A DNA stretch of 64,000 nt from Ancylobacter tetraedralis (GTDB lineage: Bacteria > Pseudomonadota > Alphaproteobacteria > Rhizobiales > Xanthobacteraceae): the NCBI RefSeq assembly GCF_014195655.1, contig NZ_JACICD010000002.1:496001-560000 (forward strand). The letters are read 5' to 3'. The position numbers and the translations under genes were made by a program. The notes below the pieces were generated by a model, which saw only the letters and a list, made by a program, of their open reading frames with translations, was not told the origin of the DNA and searched no databases. Below, piece by piece: positions 31,213 through 57,020 of this stretch. The stretch's first letter is position 1; every line of letters starts with the position of its first letter.

Positions 31213-31288
31213 GGGGCCGTAGCTCAGTTGGGAGAGCGCTGCAATCGCACTGCAGAGGTCAGGGGTTCAAATCCCCTCGGCTCCACCA
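31213..31288 (+). tRNA. tRNA-Ala (anticodon CGC)
   Basis: The 76-nt cloverleaf has acceptor GGGGCCG (31213-31219) with CGGCTCC (31278-31284), discriminator A and encoded CCA (31286-31288). The D stem is GCTC/GAGC, the anticodon stem CTGCA/TGCAG with loop ATCGCAC (anticodon CGC at 31246-31248), and the T stem AGGGG/CCCCT. The G3-U70 pair, the alanine identity element, is present. Its 3' end is the integration site of the mobile element that follows. Confidence 0.97.
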
Positions 31289-31291
31289 TTC
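31275..31291. other. attL core
   Basis: CCTCGGCTCCACCATTC is identical to 57004-57020 and comprises the last 14 nt of tRNA-Ala including CCA plus TTC. A further 20-bp stretch with 17 matches follows in the same register at both ends (31308-31327 versus 57037-57056). Confidence 0.93.
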
Positions 31292-31344
31292 GTCAGGGCT
31301 AGTAAATTGAAATGGCAGCGGAATTTCCTGCGCCTCACGACGAC

Positions 31345-31402
31345 ACCCCAACATTTACCCCAACATTTGACCGCGCTTCCGGCAAACCCCAGCAAACTTT
31401 GG
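31345..31402 (+). repeat. Left-end arm-type repeat, matching one near the integrase
   Basis: ACCCCAACATTT occurs twice in tandem (31345-31368). It is followed by a segment similar, with mismatches, to the right-end copy at 56864-56921; the first 21 bp are identical. Same orientation at both element ends and closeness to the cores fit integrase arm-binding sites. Confidence 0.6.
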
Positions 31403-31440
31403 CGGGATTAATCGGGATAAGTCGGGATTTGCCGGGACCG
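31401..31440 (+). repeat. Four phased 10-bp direct repeats
   Basis: GGCGGGATTA, ATCGGGATAA, GTCGGGATTT and GCCGGGACCG follow one another exactly at 10-bp spacing, sharing CGGGA. The period is one helical turn, so a protein could bind cooperatively on one face. They lie between the left arm-type repeat and the first gene. Confidence 0.65.
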
Positions 31441-31502
31441 CTCCACCGAACTCGACTGCGCCGATAAGGACCGCCTACGCTGCCTCATCTCGGGAGGTGG
31501 GC

Positions 31503-32045
31503 TTGGTCGATCTGCGCGTGTTCGAGGGCGGTGGCAGCGATGATGACGAATCGCGGGGTGCCGGGGCCGAAGTGTCAGCAGCTTTGGCATTCGAGCGGCT
31601 GGTGATTGAAATCCTGCGTGCGGCTGCGCGTGGCTCCGAAAGCACCCACCGCGTGGCTGATGCGCTGATGGCCCTCTATGAGGTGCTGGCCGTCGATGGT
31701 GTCCGATTGCGTGCCCCGATCCACGCCGGGCTCGGCGCCGTGAGTGCGCGCCTGACGCCCAATGACGAGCCTTATGATGCTGAGCTGCGCTGGCTGCTCC
31801 AGGGCGCGCTACGGCTGACGGCCGAGAAGCTGGCGACCGATGGCTTTGCCAGGGGACGAGCGTCACAGCGGCAGGACGATTTCGACAGGGCGTTCGAGAG
31901 CTATCTGCTCGATAGGGAAACGACCGCCCGCAAATGGGGCGGCAGCTATCTCATGAAGATGCTCAAGGAGCTTCCACCGTTGGCGCCGCAGACGCCGCCG
32001 CGTAAGCCAAGGACGAAGAGCAAAGCCAGCAAGAAGGCCACATAG
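31503..32045 (+). CDS. Element-encoded hypothetical protein
   Basis: The protein of about 180 aa is not recognised. It is mostly helical (ALAFERLVIEILRAAARGSESTHRVADALMAL), with a basic Lys/Pro/Ser-rich tail (about the last 25 residues) that could contact nucleic acid. TTG at 31503 is chosen because GGGAGG ends 5 bp before it; GTG 31497 overlaps that site. It is the only plus-strand gene at the left end, convergent with terS. Confidence 0.6.
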   Translation: MVDLRVFEGGGSDDDESRGAGAEVSAALAFERLVIEILRAAARGSESTHRVADALMALYEVLAVDGVRLRAPIHAGLGAVSARLTPNDEPYDAELRWLLQGALRLTAEKLATDGFARGRASQRQDDFDRAFESYLLDRETTARKWGGSYLMKMLKELPPLAPQTPPRKPRTKSKASKKAT

Positions 32046-32090: not shown

Positions 32091-32735
32091 TTATCCGGCG
32101 CCACCCTTCGGATTTGACGCTGTCCCGGCGCTGGCGGCCTGAGCTGCAGCTGCCCGTGTGAGAATGACCCGCAGGGTATCTCGTTCATCGCGCGTCAGCT
32201 GGGCCATCCAACTGAAGTCGGCGCGGCTCTCCGTGCGGATCGGGCCGCCATTCGCCCCGGTATGCTCTATGCGCTCCTTGAACATGCCAAGATGCCTCCC
32301 GAGGTCGACCAGCGCGGCGCGCTTGTCATGCAGCTTGAATTTCACACGGCGAACGTCACGCGCCGTCTCTCCGCGGCCATCCTTGAAATCCTCGACCGTG
32401 ACCTCCGCCAGGGCTGCGGCCTGCTCACGGGTGAGGCCGGAGAAATCCAGATACGGATCGCCCTCGGCATTGGCGCGCATATAGTCCTGCATGTTGGCGA
32501 AGCCGATTTTCGCCAGTTCGTCGACGATCCGTTCCTGCGTCACGTCCATCTTCGCAGCGAGCAGGTTCTGCTTCGCCTGGACGGCGGCCTTCACGCTAGC
32601 TTTGGCTAACAGGCGCGAGCCCTGTTCATTCGCTGTTCGCAGGCTGTATCCGGCGCGGATCGCGGCCTGCGTAGCATTGAGATCGACAAGGTACTCGTCG
32701 ACAAAGCGCTGCTGCTTGGGCGTCAGTTCGCTCAT
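32091..32735 (-). CDS. Phage terminase small subunit
   Basis: The 214-aa product starts MSELTPKQQRFVDEYLVDLNATQAAIRAGYS, the hallmark N-terminal DNA-binding HTH (homeodomain-like) of one terminase small-subunit family. A helical oligomerisation region and a C-terminal tail follow. TerS recognises phage pac/cos DNA and recruits the large subunit. Here no large subunit is encoded next to it: the gene ends the minus-strand block and only a hypothetical gene lies beyond. Its ATG overlaps the stop of the preceding virion gene (ATGA). Confidence 0.9.
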   Translation of the reverse strand: MSELTPKQQRFVDEYLVDLNATQAAIRAGYSLRTANEQGSRLLAKASVKAAVQAKQNLLAAKMDVTQERIVDELAKIGFANMQDYMRANAEGDPYLDFSGLTREQAAALAEVTVEDFKDGRGETARDVRRVKFKLHDKRAALVDLGRHLGMFKERIEHTGANGGPIRTESRADFSWMAQLTRDERDTLRVILTRAAAAQAASAGTASNPKGGAG

Positions 32736-35700
32736 GGCACGGATATCCGCAACGGTTGCGGTTCTGCCTTCTCATCGCCGGCCCCGGCCGACATCGTGGC
32801 GGCAACCGGCCAGGATCGCCGATAGCGCTGAATGAGGGCCGTGCGTTGTCCCTTGGAGAGCGTGCCGGGATATTTCGCCAGCAGCGCGCGGGCACGATCC
32901 GGATTAAGCAGGGCATCGGTCACGAGGTCGTCCACCTTGGTTATACCGGCGCGGCGGAGGGCGCCGATGAGTTCGGCGCCGGCGACACCGGCCAAGGCTC
33001 CCCAGCCGCTCCCCGTGGCAATCGCTCCAGCGCCGAGCGAGGCCCCGCTTGTCAGGATGCGCGCCAGCAGTGATTCGGGCTGATTGGATGCACGCATCTG
33101 GGCCACGATATCCTGCGGCGAATTGGAGCGTCCCGGCAGCTTCACGGCATTGACGGAACGGGCGGACCTCTGGAGGTCGTCCGCGATGGCCTTCATGCTG
33201 GAAGTCTCGGCAGGGCTGAAGATTGAGCGCAGCGCTGGCTCTGCCTGTTTCATGAAGGTTTGGAACTGGTCGGACCGGAGCAGCGTGGTTCCCGAGGTTG
33301 CGGCCTCGGTGTTGGACTTCATCCGCTGCAGCATGAAATCCGCCACCGCCTTGCGCAACCCGGCGCGGGCCTCGGGATCCCTAGCGGCCTCCTTCGCAAG
33401 CTGGCGCATGATCTGCACCGGATTGGACGAGGAGAATATGCCCCCGATGGCACGAACGGCATCGTCGGCGTTGTCGACGCCGATAAGCTGGCGCACTTTG
33501 CCGGCTTGGAATTCCTCCATGGCCTGCTTCTTCGCCGCCATGAGCCGGGTGACGGCTTCCGAGGCTTCGACCGGACCTTTCAACATGCCGTCAATTTCGG
33601 GGAAGGCGCGCAGGGCGTCGCGATAACGCTGCCGCCAGGCCGTGACCTTCGCCGGGTCCAGCGTGCCGTCCGGCAGCTCGGCGGCGCGCCGAAGGGTCAT
33701 GACGGCATAGTCACGGATGCTGTTGTTCACCTCGGGAGAGGCGGCGGCTTTTCGCAGCGCCTGAACATTCTCATAGCCGCGGCTTCCGGCGCGGAAGAAC
33801 TTGCGGCCGACTTCGGAGAGCGGGAGGCGGAACACGTCCTGCGTGCCGGCGCGGCGCAACACCTCACCGACCGCGCCCTGTTCATAGGTCCGCGCGCGCT
33901 GCTTCGTGGCGCTCGTCGCCGCTGTCAGTCGGTCTCGGGCGGCTTGGTCGAAGTTGGGGGTGAGGCTGCTCGGAGTTCCTTGAGCGCGCGCAGCGTCATT
34001 AAATCCGCCTCCGCTCTGGCCTTGGTTTCGAGATGCGCGAGGAAAAGGGCTCGCTCCGGCTGCGGTAGATCCTCTACCAGAGCCGACAGCCTCTTGCCCA
34101 ATTCCCCCGGCTCGATCTGCAAGCCAGCGTTCCTTTCCCGCGCTTATGGCGGATTCCCACTGCGCCAGCATCGTATCCTCGGGGCGCATCGCCCCCGACG
34201 CCACGGCCTGCGCTTCCTGCTGCGCCTTGCCGGCGACGGTCTCCTCGATCGACCGTTCGATGGCTCCGCGCAACTGCGAGAGCCTAGCATATACCGGAGT
34301 GCGGCCCCGCTGCGATAGCTCCTCGCTCATGGCGGTGTTCACGCGGGTGCGCAGCGCGGCGACCTCGCGGAACGGCACGGCGGTGTTGTAGTTCGCCACC
34401 GTGTCGAGGATGTCGCGCTCTTCCCCCTCGAAGGGCTTTGCGGATATCGGCATGTCGGAGACGAGGCGACTCGCCTGTGCGCGGATCGGAGAAGCGTCGA
34501 GCACCAGCTTGCGGCCGGGGTCGACCGCCTCCCACAGCGCGCTTTCGCGGGCCTTGGCCTGGGCATGCGTGTCGTCGAGGCTCTGGCGGAGCGTCGCGCC
34601 GTAGCCTTCGGGTGTTCCTTCCCCGCCAAGCGCTCCCACGCGTTCTCGCGCCTGCGAGCGTGCCGCCTCGATGGCCCGCGTGGTCTCGGCGTCGAGACCG
34701 GCAAGATTCTGGCGCAGGGCCTTCACCACGGCGTCCGGTGAACCTGAGGGCTGCACATTCTCCAGCGCGGAGACGCGGGCCTGGTTCTGTTCCGCCCGGC
34801 GCTGGTTGAACGGCTCGGCACGCCGGGTCTCGGCGACGCGCTCCAGGCCGCCGATTCCCATATCGCCGGTGAGCTGGAACGTGGTCGGCTTCGATCCCGG
34901 GACAAGTTCGCCCGGCCCCTGCTCCAGAGCATCGCGCAGCGCGGCGGGGCTGGTGGCGGCATCAGTCAGCGTGTCAGCCGCAAGGCGTTCGCGGCCACCC
35001 GCCGTGAGCGGGGCGACATAGTCGCGACCGGCGCGTGCCGCCGTGGCGGCAGTGCGAGGAATCCCCGTTGCCAACGCACCAACGCCGCCGCCAATGAGAT
35101 TGCCGCCGAGTTCCGCTAGGGGGCGATAGGGCTCGGGAACGGCCTGCGCGGCCTTCTCGCCCGCGGCGCCACCCGACGCCCCGATGATGGTGTTGGCCGC
35201 GACATCGCCGGCAGAACGGGAGGAGCCGATCAGGGAATCGACAAGAGGGCTGACGGCGCGCCCAACCCCCTGAGCAAGACCGCGCACAGCCAATTCCGGC
35301 GCGACCATGTAGCCGGCCCCCGCGCCTGCCGCGCGCGCCACCTTCTCGCCCGGCGTCGTGGCCCGAACGCTTTCCGGGTCCGGAACTCCGACAGAGCCGA
35401 ACGCCTTGGCGATGGAACGCGAGCCGCCGACCGGATCGGTGATCTGCGGGATGTCCGCACCGGTCAGATAGTTGATCCCGCCGATGCCCTTGTTCAGCGC
35501 CCATGTGGTTGCGTCGACCGGCGCACCGGCGGTCGAATAGATCGCGTCGTTCAAGCCGGCCGTGGTGTTGAGGAACAGGCCGTCCCTTTTGGGGAAAGTG
35601 GCGGGCGCATCGCCCTCGATGGTGGAGAAGGCCGCATAGGGATCACCGGCGGACGCCTCATCGGCAATCGTGGAGAAGGCCGCATAGGGGTCTTCCTGCC

Positions 35701-36262
35701 CCGCCGTCTGCTGCGCATTCGTGTCGATATCGGGCGTATCCGTCACGAGGGGGAGCGCCGATGCCTCCACCGTCCCGCCGTTCAGCGGAGCGCGCAATGG
35801 TCTCGGTTGCGCCCCACCATAGGCCTGATAAAGGCGCTGGGCCGCAGCGACGCGGTTATCATAGCCGTTGGCTCCCGTGGGGTTGCCGCGCTGCCAGCCG
35901 CCGGGGCGCTCGTAGTCAAGGAAGGTCGCCGCCGCGCGCGTCGGGTCCGCCGCCGCTTTCAGCCGCGCACCAACCGACTTTTCCGAGGTGCGCAGCTCGT
36001 GGTCGAGGAACTGCAATTGCGTGTCCATATCGGACACCGGCAGCCCGCGTTCCGCCGCGAAACTGCGCAGGTTTGTCCAGCGCCCAGCCCCGGGCTGCGG
36101 GTCGCGCCAGCCGGCGATGCCATAGCCCGTGCCCTGATCGTGCGACGCGTTTGGGTTTAGGCCGGATTCCTGCCGGAGATTGCCGACGATGCCGGCCGCC
36201 GCGACGGGCGACCAGCCGAGATCGACAAGGCGGGTGAAGGCGTCCTGTTCTTGCGGCGTCAT
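32732..36262 (-). CDS. Large phage virion/DNA-ejection protein with N-terminal tail-type lysozyme domain
   Basis: The 1176-aa product begins with a roughly 150-residue domain of the phage tail-lysozyme type: SPVAAAGIVGNLRQESGLNP with probable catalytic E32, GYGIAGW, and DPTRAAATFLDYERPGG. Residues 260-410 are Gly/Ala-rich and amphipathic or hydrophobic (GAGAGYMVAPELAV, NLIGGGVGALATG). The remaining 750 residues are charged and helical. This layout recalls T7 gp16-like internal virion proteins, which digest peptidoglycan and form the trans-envelope channel. The frame is intact. It overlaps the previous gene's stop and terS by 4 bp each. Confidence 0.8.
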   Translation of the reverse strand: MTPQEQDAFTRLVDLGWSPVAAAGIVGNLRQESGLNPNASHDQGTGYGIAGWRDPQPGAGRWTNLRSFAAERGLPVSDMDTQLQFLDHELRTSEKSVGARLKAAADPTRAAATFLDYERPGGWQRGNPTGANGYDNRVAAAQRLYQAYGGAQPRPLRAPLNGGTVEASALPLVTDTPDIDTNAQQTAGQEDPYAAFSTIADEASAGDPYAAFSTIEGDAPATFPKRDGLFLNTTAGLNDAIYSTAGAPVDATTWALNKGIGGINYLTGADIPQITDPVGGSRSIAKAFGSVGVPDPESVRATTPGEKVARAAGAGAGYMVAPELAVRGLAQGVGRAVSPLVDSLIGSSRSAGDVAANTIIGASGGAAGEKAAQAVPEPYRPLAELGGNLIGGGVGALATGIPRTAATAARAGRDYVAPLTAGGRERLAADTLTDAATSPAALRDALEQGPGELVPGSKPTTFQLTGDMGIGGLERVAETRRAEPFNQRRAEQNQARVSALENVQPSGSPDAVVKALRQNLAGLDAETTRAIEAARSQARERVGALGGEGTPEGYGATLRQSLDDTHAQAKARESALWEAVDPGRKLVLDASPIRAQASRLVSDMPISAKPFEGEERDILDTVANYNTAVPFREVAALRTRVNTAMSEELSQRGRTPVYARLSQLRGAIERSIEETVAGKAQQEAQAVASGAMRPEDTMLAQWESAISAGKERWLADRAGGIGQEAVGSGRGSTAAGASPFPRASRNQGQSGGGFNDAARAQGTPSSLTPNFDQAARDRLTAATSATKQRARTYEQGAVGEVLRRAGTQDVFRLPLSEVGRKFFRAGSRGYENVQALRKAAASPEVNNSIRDYAVMTLRRAAELPDGTLDPAKVTAWRQRYRDALRAFPEIDGMLKGPVEASEAVTRLMAAKKQAMEEFQAGKVRQLIGVDNADDAVRAIGGIFSSSNPVQIMRQLAKEAARDPEARAGLRKAVADFMLQRMKSNTEAATSGTTLLRSDQFQTFMKQAEPALRSIFSPAETSSMKAIADDLQRSARSVNAVKLPGRSNSPQDIVAQMRASNQPESLLARILTSGASLGAGAIATGSGWGALAGVAGAELIGALRRAGITKVDDLVTDALLNPDRARALLAKYPGTLSKGQRTALIQRYRRSWPVAATMSAGAGDEKAEPQPLRISVP

Positions 36263-38988
36263 TGCGCACTACCCCCGCCGACAATGCCGATCTTGCCGTC
36301 TTGTCGGCGAAAGCGGCTTCCCGGTGGCAGCTTCCTTGCTTCTTCGGGCGACAGAACCGGAAGACCGTCAGTCGCCGCAGGCGATGCACTGCCGGATGTC
36401 GAAGGGCCGCCGAACATCTTCCCCGTGTCGAGCGGGGGAAGCTGGTTCACGTCGCGGCGCTCCTCGACCTGGGCCTGCTTGAACGCCGCCGCCTTCTTGT
36501 TGAGGCGGTTGATTTCGTCGATGCGCTGCTTCACGACCTCGGGATCGTTGATGCTGGCGACCAGTTCGTTCCAGGCGCGCTGCGCATCGCCTTCGGTCTG
36601 CACCCCCTTATTCAGGCGCAGGCTGTCATTGCGAAGCTTTTCCAGCGTCGCCCGGAACGAGGCGTAATTGCGCGACTGCTCATCGCTCATGCCCATCGTA
36701 TTCTTCGCGCCGGACCACAGATTGCTGAACAGGCCGAGATCCAGCTTCTTGTCGTCGATCAGGCCCTTGAAGCGCTCAAGCTCCCCCGTGATGGTGTTGA
36801 TCGACTGGATATCCTCAAGGTCGCCGGCTTCTGCGGCCTGCACGGCGGCAGACGGCGGCTTCTTGGGCAGCGTCTTTACCCCGCCGACGGTATCCCAACT
36901 GCGCGTTTCGGCGTTCCATTGCGACTTTTGCGGCTGCCCCGTTTCAGCGTCATAGGTTTCAATGACCGCGGGCGGCTTGGCCTTGCGCGCCTCCGCCATG
37001 CTCTGCGCGGCGGTCCATCGGGCGTTGGGAATGCCGGTATCGACGATACGCCCGTCAGAGGGGTAAAGAACGCGGATCGTCGGCCCGTCGCTCAACACCT
37101 TGGGGTGCGCGTCGAGCTGCGCGGCGCGAAGCTTGGGCGCCTGATAGGCTTCCAGTCCCGCGCCGAGCCCTTCGCCGATAACGCCGCCAAGATCGGGCCG
37201 GCGCGAGGTCAGCATAGCGATGCCGGCGGAGAGCAGCGGCAGGTTGATTTCACCCGGCTTGCCCAGGATGCCGCCTAGGAACTGAGGGGCGCCCTGTGTG
37301 GACTGCGGCGCCGCCGCGATGCCGCTGGCGGCGGGCGTGGCGCCTATCCCCTGCGCGGGCACCATCGGCGCCTCTGTCGCGGCCTCCTCCAGCCACGGGG
37401 CATCGGCGGGGTCTTCGTCCGTGTCATAAACACCGCCGCCATCCGCATAGGATTTGGATGGCATGCGGTCCATCGCCGCGCGGATCGCCGCCTCGAGCCC
37501 CCTTACAGCGCCGTAGTTGCTCCCATCCGGTTCCCGGCGGGGCGAGCCGAGCGGATTCGGGCGCCCCATCCCGATGGGCTCAACCTCATATTCTTCCGCC
37601 GGGCGGATGAGGAGCGGGGTCTTGCCGTCCAGATCTTCCGGCTCCACCACCATCCCGTTGATGGTCTGCTCGCCCACGATGCCGCCACCATCGGCATAAC
37701 CGACAATGCCGCCGCGCGCGCGGGGCCCGCCATATGCCAGATTGTTCACGTAACCCGTATTGCCGAAATAGCCCGGCACGTTGCCGCCGGAGGGGGCCAA
37801 GCTGCCGATGGCACCCTCCAAAGCATCTGCGAAGCTGGAGACCGACTTGGCATTGATCCCACTATCGCGTGGCTGGCCCCCGCTCGGCGCCGAAGGAACG
37901 CGCCCACCGCCGGGCTGCGGCATGTTGATGCCGAGAGCATTGAAGGTGGTCGGGTCGAAGCGGCTTGAGGCGATGCCGCTCGAAGGCGCGGAGGCGACGA
38001 TGCCGCCGGAAGCCATGTAACGAGAATCGTCGTCATCCGCGTCATCCGCGTGTCCGACAATCCCGCCCTCACTCATGAACTTGGGCACCAGCCCAAGAAT
38101 GCTCGTCGCCCCGCCGAGGATCTGCCCCGCGGTGCTCACGCCGCTGCCCTTCTGAATATTCTGCTGCCCGAAGTTTGGCAGTATCTGGCCATACATGCCC
38201 GACAGCCACGAAAGCTGGTTATAGGGCGCGGCCTGCTGGTTCTGCCAGTTCTGGTATTGCGCATCCAGCTGCTGCTGCTGGTTCTGCTGCTGCAGGCCGC
38301 CCGAGGACAGAAGCGCGTTGATGTCCTGATAGTTGGCGTTCTGCGCCTGCGAGCCGAGCCCGCTATACAGCTGCGACGCGGTGCCGTAGCCGGACATGGC
38401 GGCCGACCGGTCGGCCTGCAATGCCTGCTGCTGCGCCGCGTTCTGCGTGTTGAACTGCCCCACCGCCGAATTGAACGCGCTGCTCTGGAGGTCAGATAGC
38501 GTCTGGTTCGTCGTCATATCCTGATTGCGGGCCAGCTCCGCCGAGGCCAGCCCGGCACGATCCCCGCCGAACGGCGAGGAGCCGGAGGAAATCGCCCGGC
38601 CGATCAGGTCGTTCTGCTGTGTCGCGTTGTTCTTGCGGACATTCGCCAGCGTCGAGTCGACGACGTTCTGCGTGTAAGGGTTCAGGTATTTCTGCAGATT
38701 GTCCTGATTGAACGCCTCAAGCTGCCCTGCCGTGCCCTGTGCCCCGGCCTGCGCCGCCTGCTGGGCATAGGTTCCGGCCTGGTCAAGATAGGGCTGCCAG
38801 ATGCCCTGCGAATTGCGGATCGCGTCGAAGGCGGCGGTCTGGTCGCCCGTGAACCCGGCGACCTGCTGGCCGGTATAGGGCTGATACGGCGTATTGCCGA
38901 GATCCTTGGTCTGCTGCAGCAGTTGCGCATAATAGGGCAGCGCGACCGGATCGGCCTTGCTGATTGCCTTGGTGGTGGAGCTACCCAA
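36259..38988 (-). CDS. Large phage structural/ejection-type protein with GGGIV repeats
   Basis: The 909-aa product begins MGSSTTKAISKADP, a start often seen in podovirus-type internal or injection proteins. Residues 90-280 are Gln/Asn/Ala-rich and helical (FNQDNLQKYLNPYTQNVV, QQNQQQQLDAQ). The middle carries several SEGGIVG/ASGGIVA/ARGGIVGYADGGGIVG units, and the last 170 residues are charged and coiled-coil-like. No enzyme motif is visible. It is co-directional and overlapping with the lysozyme-bearing gene, so the two probably act together in the virion. Exact role is inferred. Confidence 0.7.
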   Translation of the reverse strand: MGSSTTKAISKADPVALPYYAQLLQQTKDLGNTPYQPYTGQQVAGFTGDQTAAFDAIRNSQGIWQPYLDQAGTYAQQAAQAGAQGTAGQLEAFNQDNLQKYLNPYTQNVVDSTLANVRKNNATQQNDLIGRAISSGSSPFGGDRAGLASAELARNQDMTTNQTLSDLQSSAFNSAVGQFNTQNAAQQQALQADRSAAMSGYGTASQLYSGLGSQAQNANYQDINALLSSGGLQQQNQQQQLDAQYQNWQNQQAAPYNQLSWLSGMYGQILPNFGQQNIQKGSGVSTAGQILGGATSILGLVPKFMSEGGIVGHADDADDDDSRYMASGGIVASAPSSGIASSRFDPTTFNALGINMPQPGGGRVPSAPSGGQPRDSGINAKSVSSFADALEGAIGSLAPSGGNVPGYFGNTGYVNNLAYGGPRARGGIVGYADGGGIVGEQTINGMVVEPEDLDGKTPLLIRPAEEYEVEPIGMGRPNPLGSPRREPDGSNYGAVRGLEAAIRAAMDRMPSKSYADGGGVYDTDEDPADAPWLEEAATEAPMVPAQGIGATPAASGIAAAPQSTQGAPQFLGGILGKPGEINLPLLSAGIAMLTSRRPDLGGVIGEGLGAGLEAYQAPKLRAAQLDAHPKVLSDGPTIRVLYPSDGRIVDTGIPNARWTAAQSMAEARKAKPPAVIETYDAETGQPQKSQWNAETRSWDTVGGVKTLPKKPPSAAVQAAEAGDLEDIQSINTITGELERFKGLIDDKKLDLGLFSNLWSGAKNTMGMSDEQSRNYASFRATLEKLRNDSLRLNKGVQTEGDAQRAWNELVASINDPEVVKQRIDEINRLNKKAAAFKQAQVEERRDVNQLPPLDTGKMFGGPSTSGSASPAATDGLPVLSPEEARKLPPGSRFRRQDGKIGIVGGGSAQ

Positions 38989-39858: not shown

Positions 39859-40605
39859 ATGTGCAACCTTTACAGCCACCGCTCCAACGTGCAGGCCATC
39901 GCCGACCTTGTCGGCTCGCTGCGCAACCTAGCGGGCAACCTGGCGCCCCAGCCCGGCATATTCCCGGACTACCCGGCACCCATTGTGCGGACAGGTGCCA
40001 GCGGGGACCGCGAGCTCGCCATGGTTCGCTGGGGCATGCCGTCCTCATCGGCGGCTCTGTTTGAGGCGGCCCGGAAGCGCGCGGCGCGGCTGGAGGCCAA
40101 GGGCCAGACGGTTGATTTCAAGGAACTGCTTCGGCTGGAGCCCGACAGTGGCACGACCAACATCCGCAATGTCGGCTCTCGCCACTGGCAGCGCTGGCTG
40201 GGGCCGGAAAACCGGTGCCTCGTGCCGTTCACCAGCTTCAGCGAGCACAGCAAAGCACATGGCGGCGACGTGTGGTTCGCGCGGTCCGAGGATCGGCCGC
40301 TGACCTTCTTCGCCGGGATATGGGCGCCGCAATGGGCCTCCGTTCGGAAGATCAAGACCGGTGTTGAGACCATCGACCTGTTCGGCTTCCTCACGACCGA
40401 GCCAAACGCGGTCGTGGCGCCGATCCACCCCAAGGCCATGCCGGTAATCCTCACCACAGCGGAGGAGCGCGAGGTGTGGCTGCGCGCGCCATGGAGCGAG
40501 GCCAAGGCCTTGCAGCGGCCGCTGGTGGACGGGGCGCTCATGATTGTGGCGCGTGGGGCGAAAGAGGATCCGCCACCGGAGTCGCCGCAGGCGGACCTGT
40601 TCTGA
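39859..40605 (+). CDS. SOS response-associated peptidase (SRAP/YedK/HMCES family)
   Basis: The 248-aa product begins MCN: after Met removal the Cys is the catalytic N-terminal residue that forms a thiazolidine crosslink with abasic sites in single-stranded DNA. Other family blocks are [22 protein letters not shown] (active-site Glu) and [13 protein letters not shown] (active-site His). These proteins protect ssDNA abasic sites; in mobile elements they may protect replicating DNA or counter host responses. It is the first plus-strand gene right of the AT-rich region. Confidence 0.92.
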
Positions 40606-45516: not shown

Positions 45517-45732
45517 TTACGCAGCACTGTTCTGGAAGCGCGGCAGGCTACCGAGCCACGTTTCAATGGCGGCGCGGGTGATAACGGTCCGGCGACCGAC
45601 TTTCCGGGCATCAAGGCGCCCGGCGGCAATTTCGTCGTAGATCTTATTACGGCCGATCCCCATGACGCGCATGGCGTCGCTTACATCATAAGCGAGGGCC
45701 TCGGCTTCGATACGGTCCGGAAGCTTCCGCAT
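45517..45732 (-). CDS. AlpA/excisionase-like MerR-type DNA-binding protein
   Basis: The 71-aa product has the excisionase-type winged helix: YDVSDAMRVMGIGRNKIYDEIAAGRLDARKVGRRTVITRAAIETWL. AlpA proteins in P4-like satellites and PICIs activate or assist excision. It is encoded upstream of the coupled replication genes on the same strand. The 80-bp gap below it holds a hairpin, and the DNA above it holds a 9-bp inverted repeat, likely regulatory. Confidence 0.82.
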   Translation of the reverse strand: MRKLPDRIEAEALAYDVSDAMRVMGIGRNKIYDEIAAGRLDARKVGRRTVITRAAIETWLGSLPRFQNSAA

Positions 45733-45873: not shown

Positions 45874-46830
45874 CTACCGTTTAGGGCCTTGTTGCTTAGC
45901 CCACCGTGAGTATCCCCGCCTCAATCGATCTATCCGACTATCTTCATTTCCTCCACCTTCGGACTTGGCGACCACGGCCTTTGCCGCTGGCAGGATCTTC
46001 ATCCCTCCGTCGATGAGACCTGCCATTTCTAAGAAGAGCGGAATGTCTTCATATCTGCCCCCACGGGGCGCTCCTACAGAAGGTACAATTGGCGCATTCG
46101 ATCGACCGGTAGCGTGGGATTGAACATCATCGCCGCTTTCGCCCGAGCCGGCGTGAGCCTGCGTAGGGTCGCCGTCACTCCCCGCCAGCGAGGCAGGCCA
46201 CGTTCCGAGCGCAGCATTTCGTGCCGCTTCATCAACCTGCGCATTTTCAATTTCCGCTGCAACTCGATCCCGCTCAATTGCCGCGGCTTCCTCCCCATCG
46301 CGGATAGCGTCATGCATCGCCTGCACCATGTCGGTGCGTAAATGTCGCTGTAACTGCATGTCATCGACGAAGATACGCTCGGCGTCGCTATCGTCATCGT
46401 CGATCCGGCATTCCGAGAACACGACCTCCGGCTGCGTCACCGCCCAAAAGCCCGAGTCCAGCTCTCTGCGCGCGCCGGTTCGCGACGATATGGCGAAGGT
46501 GCGCAGGCGCCCTTCCACGGCCAGGTCGCGAAGCTCACGAAACACAGCCTGCGCCTGCCGCCTCTGGTACGTGTCCCGCTCCGAAAGTGGCGGAGGCATC
46601 CTTTCCCGCGCTTGGTCGAGCAGAGTTTCCAAGGCTGCAGGTGCTGACAGGTCCGTGTTGGCGGCCTCGTCCAGCCACGGCATGGCAGGCGGTTCGATAC
46701 CGGGGGCGAGGTCGCTCCAGTCGTCGCGGTGCCGCACGCGGCCAAGCTCGCAAACGGCACGGCCGAGAAAGGTCAGGCCCTTGGGATCAAGGGGCCATGC
46801 GGCCCGGTTATTCCAGAATTGAAAGCTCAT
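45874..46830 (-). CDS. Element-encoded hypothetical protein (318 aa)
   Basis: The protein is unrecognised. MSFQFWNNRAAWPLDPKGLTFLGRAV opens the product, followed by a helical, charged region with many Arg/Glu (QARERMPPPLSERDTYQRRQAQAVFRELRDL) and an acidic stretch (CRIDDDDSDAERIFVDD); the C-terminus is basic. ATG 46830 is used; the upstream frame overlaps the next gene region and lacks a ribosome-binding site. It lies in the minus-strand series with the DUF3102 gene. Confidence 0.6.
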   Translation of the reverse strand: MSFQFWNNRAAWPLDPKGLTFLGRAVCELGRVRHRDDWSDLAPGIEPPAMPWLDEAANTDLSAPAALETLLDQARERMPPPLSERDTYQRRQAQAVFRELRDLAVEGRLRTFAISSRTGARRELDSGFWAVTQPEVVFSECRIDDDDSDAERIFVDDMQLQRHLRTDMVQAMHDAIRDGEEAAAIERDRVAAEIENAQVDEAARNAALGTWPASLAGSDGDPTQAHAGSGESGDDVQSHATGRSNAPIVPSVGAPRGGRYEDIPLFLEMAGLIDGGMKILPAAKAVVAKSEGGGNEDSRIDRLRRGYSRWAKQQGPKR

Positions 46831-46921
46831 CGCATGCACCCGGCAAGCACCGTGGGGGACGCAGGGAAACCGAGCGGTGCGTCTCGGCTTGTCGGCCCGT
46901 CGGCCTATCCCCGCGAACTCG

Positions 46922-47677
46922 TCAAGCCCTGAGGCCGTCAATTCTTCTGTCAACGAGGCCGGGCGCCCTGACGGCCGCAAGATCAGCCGCGTAAATGCCG
47001 CGGCAGATCTTGAGCAGTTCGACCAGCCGTTCAGTGTCGTCACCCACGTGCTGAACAATGAGACGTGCGGCGTCTTTTCGCGCGGCCGCCTCCTGGTTCA
47101 GCTCGGCTTCCCGCTCCTGCCGGTGTCGCTCCAGCTGGCGCTGCCGCCGTGCTTCAACCTGTTGCCGCCGCCGACGCTGCTCGGGCGTCCGCTTGGCATC
47201 TTCTCGGGCCCGCCGTTCTGCTGCCTTCCCGTGCCTGACGATGCTCTTGATCTCGTCGTGGGAGAGACGTTCGCCCTGTTCCAGCCGCTCGACCACCGCT
47301 GCACGGACCGGTTCCGGCGTCGACGGTGAGGCGAGCTGGTAAATTGTCGTGGGCGGCAAATACGAAACGCTTGCGGATTTCGAGGCGAATACCTCGGCGG
47401 CGCGCATGTAATTCTGCGCGGTGCGCTCACCCCAACCGAATTCGGCCGCCAGCCAGTCGCCGAAGTGGCCATGCCCCAGCCCCTGCTTGGCGGCCAGCAG
47501 CAATTCCCCGATAGCGATGATCTGCTGGCCGACCTTCTTCTGGTAGCACCGGATTGCAGTCACGACCTCGCGCAGCTTGGTCGCGTCCGCTGGCGTCAGG
47601 GCCGCATAGTCGAAGGGCTGGACAGGAACAGTCTCGGCGACAGGGCGAGCTGGAGAGATAAGTTCAGCCTGCTGCAT
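46922..47677 (-). CDS. DUF3102 domain protein
   Basis: The 251-aa product contains the DUF3102 core (about residues 35-105: IGELLLAAKQGLGHGHFGDWLAAEFGWGERTAQNYMRAAEVF). Then come a short HTH-like segment and a long Arg/Gln/Glu-rich helical tail (about 150-205) that should form a coiled coil. DUF3102 proteins are common on phages, plasmids and integrative elements and are thought to bind DNA. CGGGAGGTGGCTC precedes ATG 47677. It overlaps the stop region of the next upstream small gene by 14 bp. Confidence 0.85.
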   Translation of the reverse strand: MQQAELISPARPVAETVPVQPFDYAALTPADATKLREVVTAIRCYQKKVGQQIIAIGELLLAAKQGLGHGHFGDWLAAEFGWGERTAQNYMRAAEVFASKSASVSYLPPTTIYQLASPSTPEPVRAAVVERLEQGERLSHDEIKSIVRHGKAAERRAREDAKRTPEQRRRRQQVEARRQRQLERHRQEREAELNQEAAARKDAARLIVQHVGDDTERLVELLKICRGIYAADLAAVRAPGLVDRRIDGLRA

Positions 47678-47903
47678 GAGCCACCTCCCGCCGCCCGCCG
47701 GTGAGATAGGCTTCGACGGCATCGAGGTCGGCCCGGTAAGGGGCGGCGCCGGAGCCGAACACGATGGCGTTCGACGCGATGTCGATCAGCATCCATCCGC
47801 CGTGATCGAGCGCGTCCGGATCGCGCCTCCGCGATTTCTCAAGCCTCAATCCCTGCCGCTGCGCTTTTCGGCGTAGACGGTTCTCACGCACCTTGTCGAC
47901 CAT
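47664..47903 (-). CDS. Small conserved mobile-element protein (79 aa)
   Basis: The product has the pattern RENRLRRKAQRQGLRLEKSRRRDPDALDHGGWMLID...ADLDAVEAYLTG, seen in many phage and integrative-element small proteins: a basic helix, then a small beta domain. Its function is unknown. ATG 47903 is preferred over TTG 47909. It is the first minus-strand gene left of the P63C promoter region. Confidence 0.65.
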   Translation of the reverse strand: MVDKVRENRLRRKAQRQGLRLEKSRRRDPDALDHGGWMLIDIASNAIVFGSGAAPYRADLDAVEAYLTGGRREVAHAAG

Positions 47904-48297
47904 GTGCAACGCCCTATTCTGCGAGCCATTCGCAGAATCATGACCGACGCGCGGTTGCAGAACAAGAGGGGAACGCGACTGTCCCCATTGTGACGTCTAG
48001 AAGATGAATCAACTGGATGTGAGTCAATGGCCGCGGCGGTTTTCTGAAGGCTCTCGCCGAGCAATCCCTGGCACAATATGCGAGACGCTGGAATCGGCGC
48101 GCTGCACCGGGCATTGGAAGACCACGACGTTCGCGGACGCATTCCGCCTCGCGGGTATGACCGCGCTCTTTGTCTACGACTGCGCCACGAACGGGGTCGT
48201 GTTCCGGGCTTACGTCGCGCAGGTGCAATCCGCCCGATGCTTGCTAGCAAGCTTGGTGTGTGCATGATGCTTGCATAAAGCAAGCAATGGATTCGCA
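47904..48297. promoter_or_regulatory. Divergent control region between the minus-strand block and the P63C gene
   Basis: This 394-bp gap has no convincing gene. A plus-strand frame 48004-48267 (87 codons) and overlapping frames exist, but none has a ribosome-binding site or family features. The right part carries two related palindromes (48239-48252 and 48269-48285) just before the P63C start, so at least that part is regulatory. Confidence 0.5.
48239..48285. promoter_or_regulatory. Paired palindromic operators upstream of the P63C gene
   Basis: GCTTGCTAGCAAGC (48239-48252) is a perfect 14-bp palindrome. GCTTGC-ATAAA-GCAAGC (48269-48285) repeats the same half-sites with a 5-nt centre. Both are preceded by GAT, and their left half-sites lie 30 bp apart (three helical turns). 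The second ends 13 bp before the ATG at 48298, an ideal place for repressor binding. Confidence 0.65.
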
Positions 48298-49302
48298 ATG
48301 AACGATATTCCGAGCGAGGGCGGCAAAGCTCGCGCCCTCAAGTTGTCGCCTGAAGAGCGACGCGCCATCGCATCCGAGGGTGCTAAGGCGCGTTGGGCAA
48401 AGGTCAAAGCTGAACGTAACCAGCTCCCGAAGGCTGAACATGGCGATGAAAGCCGGCCGCTTCGCATTGGAGAGATGGAGATCCCTTGCTACGTGCTGGA
48501 TGATGAGCGCCGCGTCCTGACCGCTACGGGCATGCAGAGTGCGCTCAATATGGCCCGAGGTGGCAGTATGGTCGCGGGGGTGAATCGTTTTGAGCTTTTT
48601 GCCAGCGGAAACCGGATTAAGCCATTTGTTTCCAACGATTTAATGGAGAGATTCCGAAACCCAATTATCTTCCTTACGCCAACTGGAGGCCAAGCCTATG
48701 GGTATGAGGCTGAGGTTCTGGTTGAGCTATGTGAGGCGGTTCTTTCGGCTAGGGCTACTGGAGAACTTCAGAAGCAGCAACTCGGCATTGCCCAGCAGTG
48801 CGAAATGATTATCCGGGGCCTTGCACGAGTAGGTATCGTCGCTCTCGTTGATGAAGCTACAGGATTTCAGGAGGTCCGTGCCCGAGATGCGCTGCATAAG
48901 ATCCTTGAAGCTTATATCTCGCCCGAACTTCTCCCTTGGACACAGCGCTTCCCCAATGAATTTTACAAGGAGATGTTTCGATTGCATCGCTGGGAGTACA
49001 ATCCGGCATCGGTCAAGCGCCCGGGCGTCGTTGGGAAGTTCACCAACCAACTCGTTTATGAGCAGTTGCCGCCGGGCATCTTAGACGAGTTGCGGGCGAA
49101 GAACCCAAAGGATGATGCCGGCCGTCGTCGGGCCAGGCATCATCAGTATCTGACGCACGAGGTTGGACACCCCCACCTAGAGGGCCAGATTACCAAGGTA
49201 GTCACTTTGATGCAGGCATCAGATAACTGGCCAATGTTCAAACGGCTGTTTGAACGGGTATTCCCAAAGAAGGGAAGCCAGCCAGATTTGCTACCGGACT
49301 GA
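48298..49302 (+). CDS. P63C domain protein
   Basis: The 334-aa product has an N-terminal basic segment (KLSPEERRAIASEGAKARWAK) common in phage-encoded proteins, a middle region (RPLRIGEMEIPCYVLDDERRVLTATGMQSAL; FLTPTGGQAYGYEAEVLVELCEAVL), and a C-terminal P63C-type domain (PWTQRFPNEFYKEMFRLHRWEY ... PPGILDELRAKNP). P63C proteins occur mainly on prophages and islands; their function is unknown. ATG 48298 lies directly downstream of the paired palindromes, so transcription is likely repressor-controlled. Confidence 0.85.
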   Translation: MNDIPSEGGKARALKLSPEERRAIASEGAKARWAKVKAERNQLPKAEHGDESRPLRIGEMEIPCYVLDDERRVLTATGMQSALNMARGGSMVAGVNRFELFASGNRIKPFVSNDLMERFRNPIIFLTPTGGQAYGYEAEVLVELCEAVLSARATGELQKQQLGIAQQCEMIIRGLARVGIVALVDEATGFQEVRARDALHKILEAYISPELLPWTQRFPNEFYKEMFRLHRWEYNPASVKRPGVVGKFTNQLVYEQLPPGILDELRAKNPKDDAGRRRARHHQYLTHEVGHPHLEGQITKVVTLMQASDNWPMFKRLFERVFPKKGSQPDLLPD

Positions 49303-51318: not shown

Positions 51319-51327
51319 GGTCTGGCC

Positions 51328-52696: not shown

Positions 52697-52752
52697 ATAT
52701 CGCGCATCCGTCACCCCAGCCGCCGGCCAGCATGGCTGGCGAAGGAGGCTCT

Positions 52753-53533: not shown

Positions 53534-53640
53534 CGGCCCGCATCATAGGCCACTGGATCGCCGTTGCCGGCCTCTCGCTGTCGCGCCTGGGATTGAGGCT
53601 CATGAGCGCGGGGCCGGTGCGCGTGGTCGTCGCCGGCTAG
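53530..53640 (+). CDS. Mini-protein with one hydrophobic helix (36 aa)
   Basis: Reads MTARIIGHWIAVAGLSLSRL then GLRLMSAGPVRVVVAG. It overlaps the preceding gene as ATGA and ends at TAG 53640. The hydrophobic N-terminal helix suggests a membrane mini-protein. It is supported only by coupling with the upstream genes. Confidence 0.45.
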   Translation: MTARIIGHWIAVAGLSLSRLGLRLMSAGPVRVVVAG

Positions 53641-54015: not shown

Positions 54016-55464
54016 TTAGGCCCACGACGGGATATAGCCGGCCCTCGGACTTGCCGGGTCGGCCAGCCGGATCAGGTTGGCCGACGTGGCGTCTCGCAAA
54101 ATACGCGACACCTGTGCCGCGTTCTGGTCTTCAATGCCGAAACGCGCGCGAAGCGATGCGTTTGTCAATTTTTCGTTCGTAAGAAATCGCAGAACGGCAT
54201 GCTGGTACGTTGCCCGCAATCTTTCAGCGGCGGTCATATGCGCAAACTGGCGGGGAGACAACATGATGACCTTCATGTTGTTCGCTTCCACCCGAAACTC
54301 CGGAGGTGGTAACTGAAATAACTCGACCGAAGCGATTACCTTGTCGAGTCCACTCCCCTGCTCTTCGCATATATTCATGCGCCGCATTAGCGCCGCCATC
54401 GCCTCGTTTCTAGAGCGAGGGGGCAGATCGATGAGGCGAGACGGTTCATTAAGTGGCGCGCCAGGATTTGTGATTTCAATACGATCAGGAAATATTTCGA
54501 TAATCGGACCAGCGCCAGTAATCGTCATGTCCTGATGAATAAGTGCATTGGCGACCAATTCCCGAACCGCTATTTCCGGATAAACTGGTTGAACCTCCCG
54601 GAAGGCACGACCTATATGTTCGTTCCTAGGCAGCATTCCATTAACAGCATCGATAAGCCACGAGAATCCACTGGCATATCCACGAGTGCTTTCTTGTCTG
54701 CGATGGGTCTTGGTTCTGTCGTTTGCTTCATATTCGATAATTCTGACAACCTTTCGAGCGAGCCGCTCAAATCGATCTAGCCTCTTGCCAAATAATAGAG
54801 CGCCTAAGTTCAATATATTCCAATTATTTCCGACATCTCGCGCTATTAACCGATCTGCTAGAAGTCGTTCGAAAATTCCATCCCGGTTATCGGGGAGTGG
54901 GTGCTGGACAAGTTCGAAATAACTTGGGTAATCAATTAATTCTAACACCTCGCTGGATGTGACATATTGCATCGCGATGCCGGATTCCCACGCGTATGGC
55001 TGAAGGCGAGACCACAATATTCTCTCAGTATCCGGATGTCTTGATAGTTGCGTAGTGGCGCTCCCTATACGGATATAGGCCTCTCGATTAAATCGCGTAG
55101 GATATTGCGTTGCCGCAGATATCTCCAATAGGACAATTCGACCGCGCTCGTGGTCAAACACCTGAAAATCTAAATGAGGCGGGGGGTCAAGCATCTGGGA
55201 TAACCACAGCTGTAGTGGTTGGTTGCCTTTGACGGAGTTCCCAGGTTGAAATGTTGTGCCGACAATCTCATGATCATTGTCCCTTATACCCCAGATAATA
55301 AATCCATTGTTCCGATCAGACAACCTTGAGCTATTAGCGATAGCCGATATATTTCTTCCAATAGTCTCCACATCTGAGTTGTTTTCTTTGAATTCGACCC
55401 ATGGCGTCTCACTGTCCAGCGCCCGCAGGCTATTTATTAGATCCAGTTGCCGGGCCGTCGCCAT
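54016..55464 (-). CDS. AlbA_2 (Schlafen-type) domain ATP-binding protein
   Basis: The 482-aa product has an N-terminal AlbA_2 domain (about 20-145: TPWVEFKENNSDVETIGRNISAIANSSRL, GFIIWGIRDNDHEIVG) and a C-terminal HATPase_c_4-like segment (VRELVANALIHQDM, IEIFPDRIEITNPG, NICEEQGSGLDKVI), followed by a winged-helix-like end. Related proteins act as ATP-dependent regulators, and several are linked to phage defence. DNA is AT-richer than surroundings (55261-55320 about 38% G+C by count). It sits beside the integrase, a typical cargo position. Confidence 0.85.
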   Translation of the reverse strand: MATARQLDLINSLRALDSETPWVEFKENNSDVETIGRNISAIANSSRLSDRNNGFIIWGIRDNDHEIVGTTFQPGNSVKGNQPLQLWLSQMLDPPPHLDFQVFDHERGRIVLLEISAATQYPTRFNREAYIRIGSATTQLSRHPDTERILWSRLQPYAWESGIAMQYVTSSEVLELIDYPSYFELVQHPLPDNRDGIFERLLADRLIARDVGNNWNILNLGALLFGKRLDRFERLARKVVRIIEYEANDRTKTHRRQESTRGYASGFSWLIDAVNGMLPRNEHIGRAFREVQPVYPEIAVRELVANALIHQDMTITGAGPIIEIFPDRIEITNPGAPLNEPSRLIDLPPRSRNEAMAALMRRMNICEEQGSGLDKVIASVELFQLPPPEFRVEANNMKVIMLSPRQFAHMTAAERLRATYQHAVLRFLTNEKLTNASLRARFGIEDQNAAQVSRILRDATSANLIRLADPASPRAGYIPSWA

Positions 55465-55633
55465 AGCGGTCCTCGTCTCTACGTTTTTTTGCTCATGCCT
55501 GCTGACGGTAGGCTAGAGAAATCGTCAGTTGAGCACGAGACCCCACTAATCGGTTATCACCGTTTCCGTGCCAACGACAGGATCTATGCGCCGCCCTCAT
55601 CCTTCGCCAGCGGCTCGCCCATGGCCGTGAGCG
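55465..55633. other. Spacer between AlbA_2 gene and integrase
   Basis: This 169-bp stretch contains a T-run (TTTTTTT near 55485) upstream of the AlbA_2 start, the probable promoter side of that gene, and no convincing gene. A 12-codon minus-strand frame following the integrase stop was not taken as a gene. Confidence 0.4.
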
Positions 55634-56848
55634 CTACCCCGGCCTCACCATCGGCACGACATTGGCGGCTGGCGTCGTCCCGATGAACTTCGCCCAGGCG
55701 TCCATGAGTTTGCGCCGCTTCTCCAGCGCGTCGCCGCGTCGATAGGCGCGCTCCACCTCATCACCAACCACATGCGCCAGTGCGGCCTCCGCCACCTCGC
55801 GCGGGAACGTCGTGAGCTCGCCGGCCCAATCGCGGAACGAGGAGCGGAAGCCGTGCACCGTGATGCTCTCCATATCCATGCGCTTCTGGAGCAGGGCCAA
55901 CATTGCCATGTTGGAATGCGGCTTCCCCTTCCTCGGGCCGGGGAACACATACCCGTCCTCTCGCCGCAGCAATTCGACCCTGTCGAGAATTTCCAACGCC
56001 CTTTCGGATAGGGGCACGCGGTGCTCCTTGCCGGCCTTCATCCTTTCCGGCGGCACGGTCCATATCTTCGCCTTGCGATCTATCTCGCCCCACGTCGCCG
56101 CAATCACCTCGCCCGAGCGCGCTGCCGTCAGAATGGTGAATTCGAGCATTAGAGCGGAGAGCGCCTCGCGCTTGCGCAACTCGGTGATAAAGGCCGGCAC
56201 CTCGGCATAGGGCATCGCCGGATGGTGGCCACGCTGGAGCTTTTTCCTGCGCGGCAGGAGACTGTCCAGGTGGCCACGCCAGCGCGCGGGATTCTCGCCG
56301 GCCCTCAGTCCCTTCGCCCGGCCAGCGTCGAGCACGCGTTCGATCCGGCCGCGCAGGCGTGAAGCCGTTTCCTGCTTCGTCTGCCAAAGCGGCTGGAGAA
56401 CCTTCAGCACATGCTCGGTATTCACCCCCGCAATAGCTATGGGGCGAAGCGAGGCGGCGTAGACCTCCAGCGTGTGGCGCCACTGCCAGCGGTGCTTCTC
56501 GTTCCGGAAGCCCGATTCGATGTCATCGATCATCTGGTCCGAGAAGTCGCCGAACGTCACCACGCTCGCTGCTGCCTCGGCTGCACGACGTTGTTCGATG
56601 GGATTGAGGCCCGCTGCGACAAGGCGTCGCGCATCGGCTGCAGCGTCGCGTGCGACGGAAAGTGAGACGGAGGTGAGGCCGCCCAGGCCCATTTCCTTCA
56701 GCTTCCCCTGCCAACGAAACAGAAATAGCCAGCGCTTGGCCCCGCTGGGATCGACCACCAGATAGAGGCCGCCACCATCAGAGTGTCGGCCGGGCTTGCG
56801 GAGGGCCAAGACGCCGCGAGTAGAGAGCTTGTTCACTTCGCGCGCCAT
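55634..56848 (-). CDS. int: Tyrosine recombinase, P4-type integrase
   Basis: The 404-aa product starts MAREVNKLSTRGVLALRKPGRHSDGGGLYLVVDPSGAKRW, the DUF4102-type arm-binding N-terminus of P4-family integrases. A core-binding SAM-like domain (about 100-185) and the catalytic domain follow with R244 (AARSGEV), H332-x-x-R335 (HGFRSSFRDW), H359 and nucleophile Y369 (VERAYRRGD). All catalytic residues are present, so it is probably active. ATG 56848 is chosen since the long upstream frame runs across attR. It faces away from attR. Confidence 0.96.
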   Translation of the reverse strand: MAREVNKLSTRGVLALRKPGRHSDGGGLYLVVDPSGAKRWLFLFRWQGKLKEMGLGGLTSVSLSVARDAAADARRLVAAGLNPIEQRRAAEAAASVVTFGDFSDQMIDDIESGFRNEKHRWQWRHTLEVYAASLRPIAIAGVNTEHVLKVLQPLWQTKQETASRLRGRIERVLDAGRAKGLRAGENPARWRGHLDSLLPRRKKLQRGHHPAMPYAEVPAFITELRKREALSALMLEFTILTAARSGEVIAATWGEIDRKAKIWTVPPERMKAGKEHRVPLSERALEILDRVELLRREDGYVFPGPRKGKPHSNMAMLALLQKRMDMESITVHGFRSSFRDWAGELTTFPREVAEAALAHVVGDEVERAYRRGDALEKRRKLMDAWAKFIGTTPAANVVPMVRPG

Positions 56849-56863
56849 CTGGCACCCCAATTT

Positions 56864-56921
56864 ACCCCAACATTTACCCCAACAAATTACGGTGCTTCTG
56901 GCGGACGTCAACAAACGTCGG
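56864..56921 (+). repeat. Right-end arm-type repeat
   Basis: ACCCCAACATTT followed by ACCCCAACA (56864-56884) repeats the left-end sequence at 31345-31365 in the same orientation; similarity with mismatches continues to 56921. An extra partial copy overlaps the integrase start region (56853-56863). It lies between int and attR, where integrase arm sites are expected. Confidence 0.6.
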
Positions 56922-57003
56922 TAGCGCGAATGGGAGCCAAGCGTTTGGCATTTAAAGGGCTGTGATGACATCAAGGGACGCGAGAGGGCGTTAGTTTGGT
57001 GGA

Positions 57004-57020
57004 CCTCGGCTCCACCATTC
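57004..57020. other. attR core
   Basis: CCTCGGCTCCACCATTC, identical to the attL core at 31275-31291. The tRNA 3' end duplicated here is not part of a tRNA. Downstream DNA is host. The last bases also supply the stop codon of a small doubtful minus-strand frame (57019-57234). Confidence 0.93.

Follow-up and report, generated by a model that had tools for sequence, protein, structure and literature searches.

The phage satellites in the literature that we compared work by redirecting the size of capsids or the packaging, by making capsids themselves or by taking over tails, and none was found that supplies the proteins taking DNA across the cell envelope. Phage-inducible chromosomal islands (PICIs) have been screened for by the absence of structural and lytic genes and by a size of about 12-15 kb, according to the available part of PMC6092414. 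Capsid-forming PICIs (cfPICIs) make their own capsid and, judging by a title that the review PMC11389934 cites, take nothing but tails. P4-like elements are defined, in the accessible text of PMC8628076, by psu, delta, sid and other genes. AH14b, a satellite of Pseudomonas phage AH14a, carries tail-assembly-like genes; in the sections of PMC4936722 at hand no terminase was identified, and every virion protein found was encoded by AH14a. EcCIMP1, a PICI mobilised by phage Kapi1, is described in the accessible part of PMC11773190 as having no identifiable capsid or terminase genes. Here we analyse an element of 25.7 kb (31275..57020) in a 64,000-nucleotide stretch of the Ancylobacter tetraedralis genome (contig NZ_JACICD010000002.1, positions 496,001 to 560,000 of the forward strand), hereafter the window. 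This element probably belongs to a family of integrative, sometimes plasmid-borne satellites that take head, portal and terminase large subunit (TerL) from P22-like podophages and bring their own ejection proteins and terminase small subunit (TerS).

The element is inserted at the sole tRNA gene of the window, a tRNA-Ala(cgc) on the forward strand (31213..31288, ARAGORN). The attachment (att) core is an exact 17-bp repeat, CCTCGGCTCCACCATTC, which lies over the 3′ end of this gene (31275..31291) and recurs on the integrase side (57004..57020), giving a core-to-core length of 25,729 bp. The latter junction is backed by a sister genome, G084 (G-numbers denote genomes, G000 being the one that holds the window element, and L-numbers denote loci), where the site is empty and the tRNA-Ala intact. 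Positions 1-711 of this locus (L173) align with 30581-31291 of the window (98.6%) and positions 695-4328 with 57004-60666 (89%), and the overlap of the two alignments is exactly the 17-bp core. Possible integrase arm sites lie just inside both ends: two copies of ACCCCAACATTT at 31345..31368, with a 21-bp repeat shared with 56864, and repeats of the same family at 56852..56887. The G+C content is about 65-72% outside the element and falls to 53-60% in parts of it. The tyrosine integrase gene (55634..56890, complementary strand, start codon not fixed) encodes the domains PF13356 (Arm-DNA-bind_3), PF22022 (Phage_int_M) and PF00589 (Phage_integrase), a make-up that we take to be P4-type; its product is 58-75% identical to full-length integrases of G006, G633, G113, G130 and G098. 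Bounded by att sites and equipped with its own integrase and replication genes, the element has the general make-up of a satellite.

Three genes on the complementary strand occupy the tRNA end of the element and overlap by 4 bp at each junction: A (36259..38988) and B (32732..36262), encoding ejection-type proteins of 909 and 1176 amino acids (aa), and the TerS gene (32091..32735; Terminase_2, E 2.8e-36). Residues 3-302 of A match phrog_4287, a 'DNA ejection protein' family (E 1.1e-21), and its C-terminal domain, with the motif NKGVQTEGDA, is shared with a gene adjoining the DNA-injection gene of the P22-like phage MW202573 (L003). B starts with a Phage_lysozyme2 domain (E 2.9e-28), followed by a long body that a low-confidence model predicts to be mostly helical. 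A plain query with A found no relative among viral contigs; a profile of its C-terminal domain (the A3 profile) found 189 relatives in IMG/VR, of which 80 were kept. The P22 portal profile was then run on 50 records or genomes, namely 42 of these 80 contigs, three phage records and five host genomes; at E 0.001 it matched 23 of the contigs, two of the phage records and none of the host genomes, and 17 of the 50 lay above the curated cut-off. Across the host's order the A3 profile matched one of 397 genomes, the host's own. One homologue of B lies in contig L101, which has matches to P22 portal, P22 coat and TerL; another lies in a podoprophage of G633, where TerL and portal come first, then a phrog_511 internal-virion protein, a gene in the A position that matches phrog_9667 (virion structural), B and a gene of tail type. 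B therefore holds the position of gp16, the last ejection protein in the P22 gene order. Thus P22-like podophages and podoprophages likewise carry an ejection-type gene pair downstream of their head and tail genes, with A homologous in L003 and B in L101 and the G633 prophage, and as far as homology and position go, A and B are homologues of the proteins in the ejection-protein position of these phages. Unlike the satellites, all three have TerL and portal.

No head or packaging-motor genes were recognised in the window element. Pfam and PHROGs were scanned with 20 open reading frames (ORFs) of the window, one of 114 aa and 19 out of a list of 65 that reach 120 aa or more, many of the 65 appearing to be antisense shadows; these 20 ORFs gave no match to TerL, portal, coat or tail-tube families. 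Profiles of P22 portal, P22 coat and TerL, searched over the whole genome, had no match inside the element. The family phrog_2, unnamed in the search output and taken here as TerL, matches the annotated terminase of L003, L101 (stops in frame) and the G633 podoprophage (next to the portal gene). This profile matched nothing inside any element across 13 host genomes, and three plasmids were likewise without a match. The P22 portal was found in two of 21 host genomes (none of the five in the first set; G633 and G709 among the 16 of a second), and the G633 match falls in the podoprophage, outside the satellite. PF11651 (coat) and PF03237 (TerL) had no match inside elements either. With L101, the G633 prophage and L003 as positive controls, the window element thus has no recognisable TerL, portal or capsid gene for making a particle, as a satellite should. 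The initial annotation, made from the letters of the window, had called a bounded 25.7-kb element at tRNA-Ala with TerS, two intact ejection-type genes of 1176 and 909 codons and no recognisable TerL, portal, capsid or tail tube, and all of this is borne out by the empty site, the domain matches with the 4-bp overlaps, and the ORF and genome searches. Its gene list stood for the integrase, which the P4-type label fits, and for the replication genes; its AlpA-like protein was picked out by eye alone, and an XRE gene was not found in the element, where few of the small ORFs were scanned.

Set beside the described satellites, the element shares parts with several and coincides with none. In common with Gram-negative PICIs it has a tyrosine integrase, an AlpA-like regulator (seen here by eye), replication genes, TerS, which some PICIs have, and accessory cargo; the window family differs in carrying ejection-type virion genes (A, B, Phage_lysozyme2), and the element, at 25.7 kb (18.0-27.8 kb in the bounded relatives), exceeds the PICI size of about 12-15 kb. 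Judged by the published criteria, assignment to the PICIs was rejected. Like cfPICIs, the window family encodes part of the particle and borrows the rest; unlike them, it keeps ejection proteins and has no capsid or portal gene that we found, which is close to the reverse split. The element was accordingly rejected as a cfPICI with its own capsid, with no coat or portal match in the scanned ORFs or the genome search, and TerL, portal and coat, which a P22-like prophage would have in one element, were likewise not found in it. It shares with P4-like satellites the P4-type integrase, the AlpA-like protein, primase or helicase genes (in relatives) and defence cargo, yet the 20 scanned ORFs gave no Pfam match to psu, delta or sid and the assignment was rejected; the P4-type label fits the integrase and does not make the element a P4-like satellite. 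AH14b is likewise a small element with integrase, AlpA and primase genes, capsids of another phage and tail-assembly-like genes; unlike the window family it has no identified terminase, and the word ejection is absent from the available text of its description. EcCIMP1 is similar as an E. coli island whose helper name (vB_EcoP) marks a podovirus, and neither ejection nor injection occurs in the accessible part of PMC11773190. In the available part of the review PMC6893505, ejection proteins appear in one reference title only. No satellite with ejection proteins was found in open-access papers, most subscription papers and all bioRxiv preprints being outside this scope, and a satellite family that supplies its own ejection proteins is likely to be new.

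The same arrangement recurs in other genomes. A B profile matched 19 of 391 genomes across the host's family, some of them in part only, and two of 385 across its class, the host included; the named carriers are Hyphomicrobiales. Partial matches in G709, G713 and G060 were set aside, and G693, G701, G635, G662 and L102 were left unclassified. In the relatives, of which a few ORFs per element were scanned against Pfam, PHROGs or PADLOC, the shared plan is an integrase, replication genes, an ejection-type gene, B, often TerS, and other genes, with a tRNA at one end. The replication genes vary from one relative to another, and the pair of an ejection-type gene and B recurs. A repeat of the tRNA 3′ end, 14-52 bp long, lies just outside the integrase gene at eight of nine tRNA-adjacent loci tested, G094 being without it; these repeats stand 127-284 bp from the integrase match, and chance alone would place about 4.5e-5 matches of 14 bp per element within 300 bp of the integrase, and still fewer longer ones. 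Counting that of the window, there are nine bounded elements, spread over seven genomes: at tRNA-Ala in G000 (25.7 kb) and G006 (21.2 kb, integrase 75% identical, other replication genes), at tRNA-Ser in G633 (27.8 kb), G113 (18.0 and 26.0 kb, in tandem) and G130 (23.3 and 22.7 kb), at tRNA-Lys in G023 (19.2 kb) and at tRNA-Arg in G787 (23.8 kb). Three att copies at one tRNA-Ser of G113 (C31, L137/L138) reveal its two tandem ejection-gene elements. For L146, direct repeats within the locus alone were uninformative and the att site was seen once the tRNA side was included. The integrase gene adjoins tRNA-Met in G041, G160 and G082; no second att repeat was found for these three, nor for G094, and comparison of G041 with G160 puts the element end between shared blocks. 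Finally, B and ejection-type genes are carried by two complete circular plasmids, Aureimonas pAU20g (28.3 kb) and a Microvirga lotononidis plasmid of 40.9 kb with repB/repC, and a second Microvirga plasmid has at least part of B.

The gene before B resembles window A in G023, G057, G082, L141 and L088, and is gp7-like (phrog_2534, 'released from the phage upon host infection') in G006, G041, G094, G113_1, G130b, G160 and G633. TerS directly follows B in the window, G057, G082, G041, G160, G006, G113_1 (a short match) and G130b, and in G094 it lies one small ORF beyond B. Several loci add variants of their own. The Microvirga lotononidis plasmid has three consecutive ejection-type genes (phrog_4287, A-type and B; L152 14722-20453) and no P22 portal or phrog_2 match. 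A 28-kb viral contig (L088, IMGVR_UViG_2531839176_000002) encodes a replication initiator, DnaB, an A-type protein of 808 aa and then a different gene of 1181 aa, without a P22 portal, and is perhaps another branch of the satellite family. Cargo beside TerS in the G041 element (L139 3491-5386) matches the candidate defence pair PDC-M31A/B, and the second G113 element carries an LmuB-like SMC ATPase and a SIR2-like protein (L137 10534-15338).

The ejection genes and TerS are under purifying selection. The ratio of nonsynonymous to synonymous divergence (dN/dS, Nei-Gojobori; 14 gene pairs, with dS near 1 in some) is 0.09-0.23 for A or the gp7-like gene, B and TerS in G041/G160, G057/G082 and G130b/G113_1, and 0.12-0.26 in three further B pairs. 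All 23 B proteins placed in a tree are open frames, of 919-1471 aa. In this tree the B of the G633 podoprophage is nested among satellite Bs on well-supported branches, the deep nodes being unsure from long branches. Its first 100 residues are 83% identical to those of satellites L134 (same genome) and L143, and later blocks 43-65%; by this comparison it is a mosaic with satellite B.

A-position proteins end in a few interchangeable tails, found on phage and satellite proteins alike. We compared the A/B junctions of L046, L091, L101, L133-L140, L143, L146, L151 and L152. The first tail, ending in ...RGAPRDAVIQRL...GVNPAGL, is borne by the phage-type L133 and L046 and by satellites L134, L136, L137, L138 and L143. 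A second, recognised by reading the printed ends (a regular expression for it gave no match), is borne by L135, L139, L140 and L146. The third (GDPLGIR) is found in podoprophage L101 and satellite-like L009, and the fourth on plasmids L151 and L152 and on a viral contig (L091). The first tail is paired with a B starting like MFDDLIP in L046, L134, L136, L137 and L138, and not clearly so in L143 and L133. Between L135 and L137 the A bodies agree at 30-49 of 50 residues per block while the tails differ, and the B proteins agree at 90-95 of 100 except at the N-terminus (43 of 75). This pattern and the pairing of tails with B starts point to a cassette, made of the last part of A and the first part of B, which seems to be exchanged as one piece among phages and satellites and may dock to a partner in the procapsid. 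In a model of the gp7-like protein, of low confidence overall, the tail is predicted as a helical piece of its own that follows a stretch of low confidence. The muralytic domains come from different families and lie in different ejection genes, with Phage_lysozyme2 in window B and in the A of L141 and Hydrolase_2 in the B of G023; a separate match to Hydrolase_2 in L009 stays below the cut-off. Since seven of ten proteins scanned gave no Pfam match, such a domain is established for some elements and not for every one.

From these data we infer dependence on a helper, for which the homology of A and B points to a P22-like podophage, packaging in its particles and ejection in the following way. 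Upon infection by a helper, or its induction, the element would excise and replicate. A and B, produced late, would be loaded into procapsids of the helper, either replacing or accompanying its own ejection proteins, and the satellite TerS would direct the helper TerL to satellite DNA. In the infection that follows, A and B, equipped with a muralytic domain of their own, would form a channel across the envelope through which the satellite DNA enters; the helper would contribute head, portal, motor and tail, and the satellite the injector. More tentatively, at somewhat less than an even chance, there may be a whole, so far undescribed class of satellites that outsource all but the injector, living on tRNA islands and plasmids, and whose exchangeable muralytic heads and A-tail/B-head docking cassette, shared with helpers, serve to choose the helper and re-target the envelope.

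Several observations weigh against a podophage satellite with its own injector. A helper of P22 type seems seldom to be resident, given the portal in two of 21 host genomes. The negatives with PF11651 and PF03237 count for little, because both also miss the coat and TerL of the G633 podoprophage itself, and several relatives have unlabelled ORFs of at least 400 aa, mostly outside the scans. Only in some relatives is the gene ahead of B a homologue of window A; the others carry an ejection-type gene there, drawn from several unrelated ones. Behind B, no TerS was recognised in the G633 satellite, G023, G787, G098 and pAU20g, and in G113_2 and G130a it follows the primase, not B. The B of G023 is placed mainly by position, and that of L009, which was left out of the tree, is interrupted. 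The structure models are of low confidence, with a mean predicted local distance difference test score of 56 for B and 55 for the gp7-like protein, and no solved structure matches by sequence search. Fold searches with the B model gave nothing at E 0.001 in the PDB, and viral matches with a template modelling score (TM-score) of at most 0.23, mostly unnamed phage proteins and one with a transglycosylase name.

The same A and B proteins may also interfere with the helper, and they could be chiefly weapons, which spoil or bias the delivery of helper DNA from within procapsids or defend against podophages. Helper interference is a published feature of PICIs (PMC6092414, in the part available), and relatives carry defence-type cargo, PDC-M31A/B in G041 and an LmuB-like protein in G113_2. 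However, such muralytic domains as were found belong to different families and lie at different places, a variety easier to reconcile with true entry into cells than with a decoy; moreover the ejection genes are under purifying selection and TerS is coupled to A-B in the window. The two roles could coexist, and we regard a chiefly antagonistic role as unlikely.

It is less probable still that the element is the remnant of a P22-like podovirus prophage from which head, portal and TerL were deleted, although the A and B homologues stand in the ejection position of real podophages and podoprophages (L003, L101, G633) and the L009 B is interrupted. Such an origin would need the same loss repeated at tRNA-Ala, -Ser, -Lys, -Arg and -Met and on plasmids, in company with different replication genes, and with ejection genes kept open under purifying selection. 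TerS, too, lies directly after B, unlike what we take to be its place in P22. The initial annotation had preferred a satellite to such a head-less remnant, and this interpretation is supported overall. It had looked to other tRNA loci for the same gene set without the missing phage genes, and the order integrase, replication genes, ejection-type gene, B and often TerS does recur there. It had also named what would speak for a remnant: no relative was found with head, portal or TerL genes inside the same kind of att bounds, and as to relaxed selection and frameshifts, the dN/dS of 0.09-0.23 between sister satellites argues otherwise and the interrupted L009 B is the one part of that expectation that was seen.

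We consider it very improbable that the element is a small but complete podovirus in which head, portal and TerL have diverged beyond recognition. Many ORFs are without a database match, and PF11651 and PF03237 miss even a known podoprophage. However, apart from ORFs antisense to A and B, few unmatched window ORFs reach at least 300 aa (44360-45307, 45874-47058 and 52711-53682 on the A-B strand, 40889-41812 on the other), two relatives span 18-19 kb only, the largest unannotated genes of the complete plasmid pAU20g are A-type and B, and phrog_2 matches 13 of 14 control genomes and none of the elements. Equally improbable is a plasmid or integrative element unrelated to phage satellites that uses A and B in some other DNA transfer, for instance as polyvalent proteins in conjugation: some carriers are plasmids and one structural neighbour of B, at very low TM-scores, is labelled 'Large polyvalent protein associated domain', but TerS recurs beside B, homology and synteny link both genes to podophage ejection genes, and the three plasmids are typed non-mobilizable in PLSDB.

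If the element is indeed a satellite with its own injector, DNA ejection would be a virion function that can be detached from the rest and is selected in its own right, and the satellite's ejection proteins could set the hosts entered with borrowed particles. The family also offers a natural set of swapped ejection modules, in muralytic domains and A-tail/B-head cassettes, for testing how ejection proteins dock in procapsids. Satellite detection that relies on PICI, P4 or cfPICI markers might miss elements of this kind or misfile them as prophage remnants.

Of the module that marks PICIs, an integrase, replication genes and a master regulator in conserved order, the genes are present in the window element, the AlpA-like one being recognised by eye only. 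On the complementary strand, a 350-aa protein with a C-terminal helix-turn-helix (HTH) domain, a likely replication partner (41920..42972), overlaps the gene for an AAA_25 RepA/DnaB-like helicase with a winged-helix part (42936..44363, Pfam); relatives of the former at 41-63% occur in G041, G160, G130b and G098, and pieces in G113. The same strand holds the AlpA-like small HTH protein (45517..45732, recognised from its translation), a 394-aa protein with no assigned function (45874..47058), short pieces of which recur in other elements, a DUF3102 protein (46922..47722) with a 41% relative on pAU20g, and an AlbA_2/HATPase_c_4 (Schlafen-like) cargo gene (54016..55464), a 39% relative of which adjoins TerS in the G160 element. 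The forward strand encodes an SRAP protein (39859..40605, Pfam) and a P63C-domain protein (48271..49302), partly Ant antirepressor-like in the domain search and perhaps a regulator. Elsewhere in the host genome, a second TerS, at 40-42% to that of the window, adjoins a DUF927-type primase (G000:C6:5517-9767, L017) with no A match, and this region is perhaps another, different PICI-like element. Two adjacent, probably paralogous small proteins are encoded inside the element at 51743-52189 and 52259-52696 of the window (repeats D5 and D14), with starts that look twin-arginine-like by eye.

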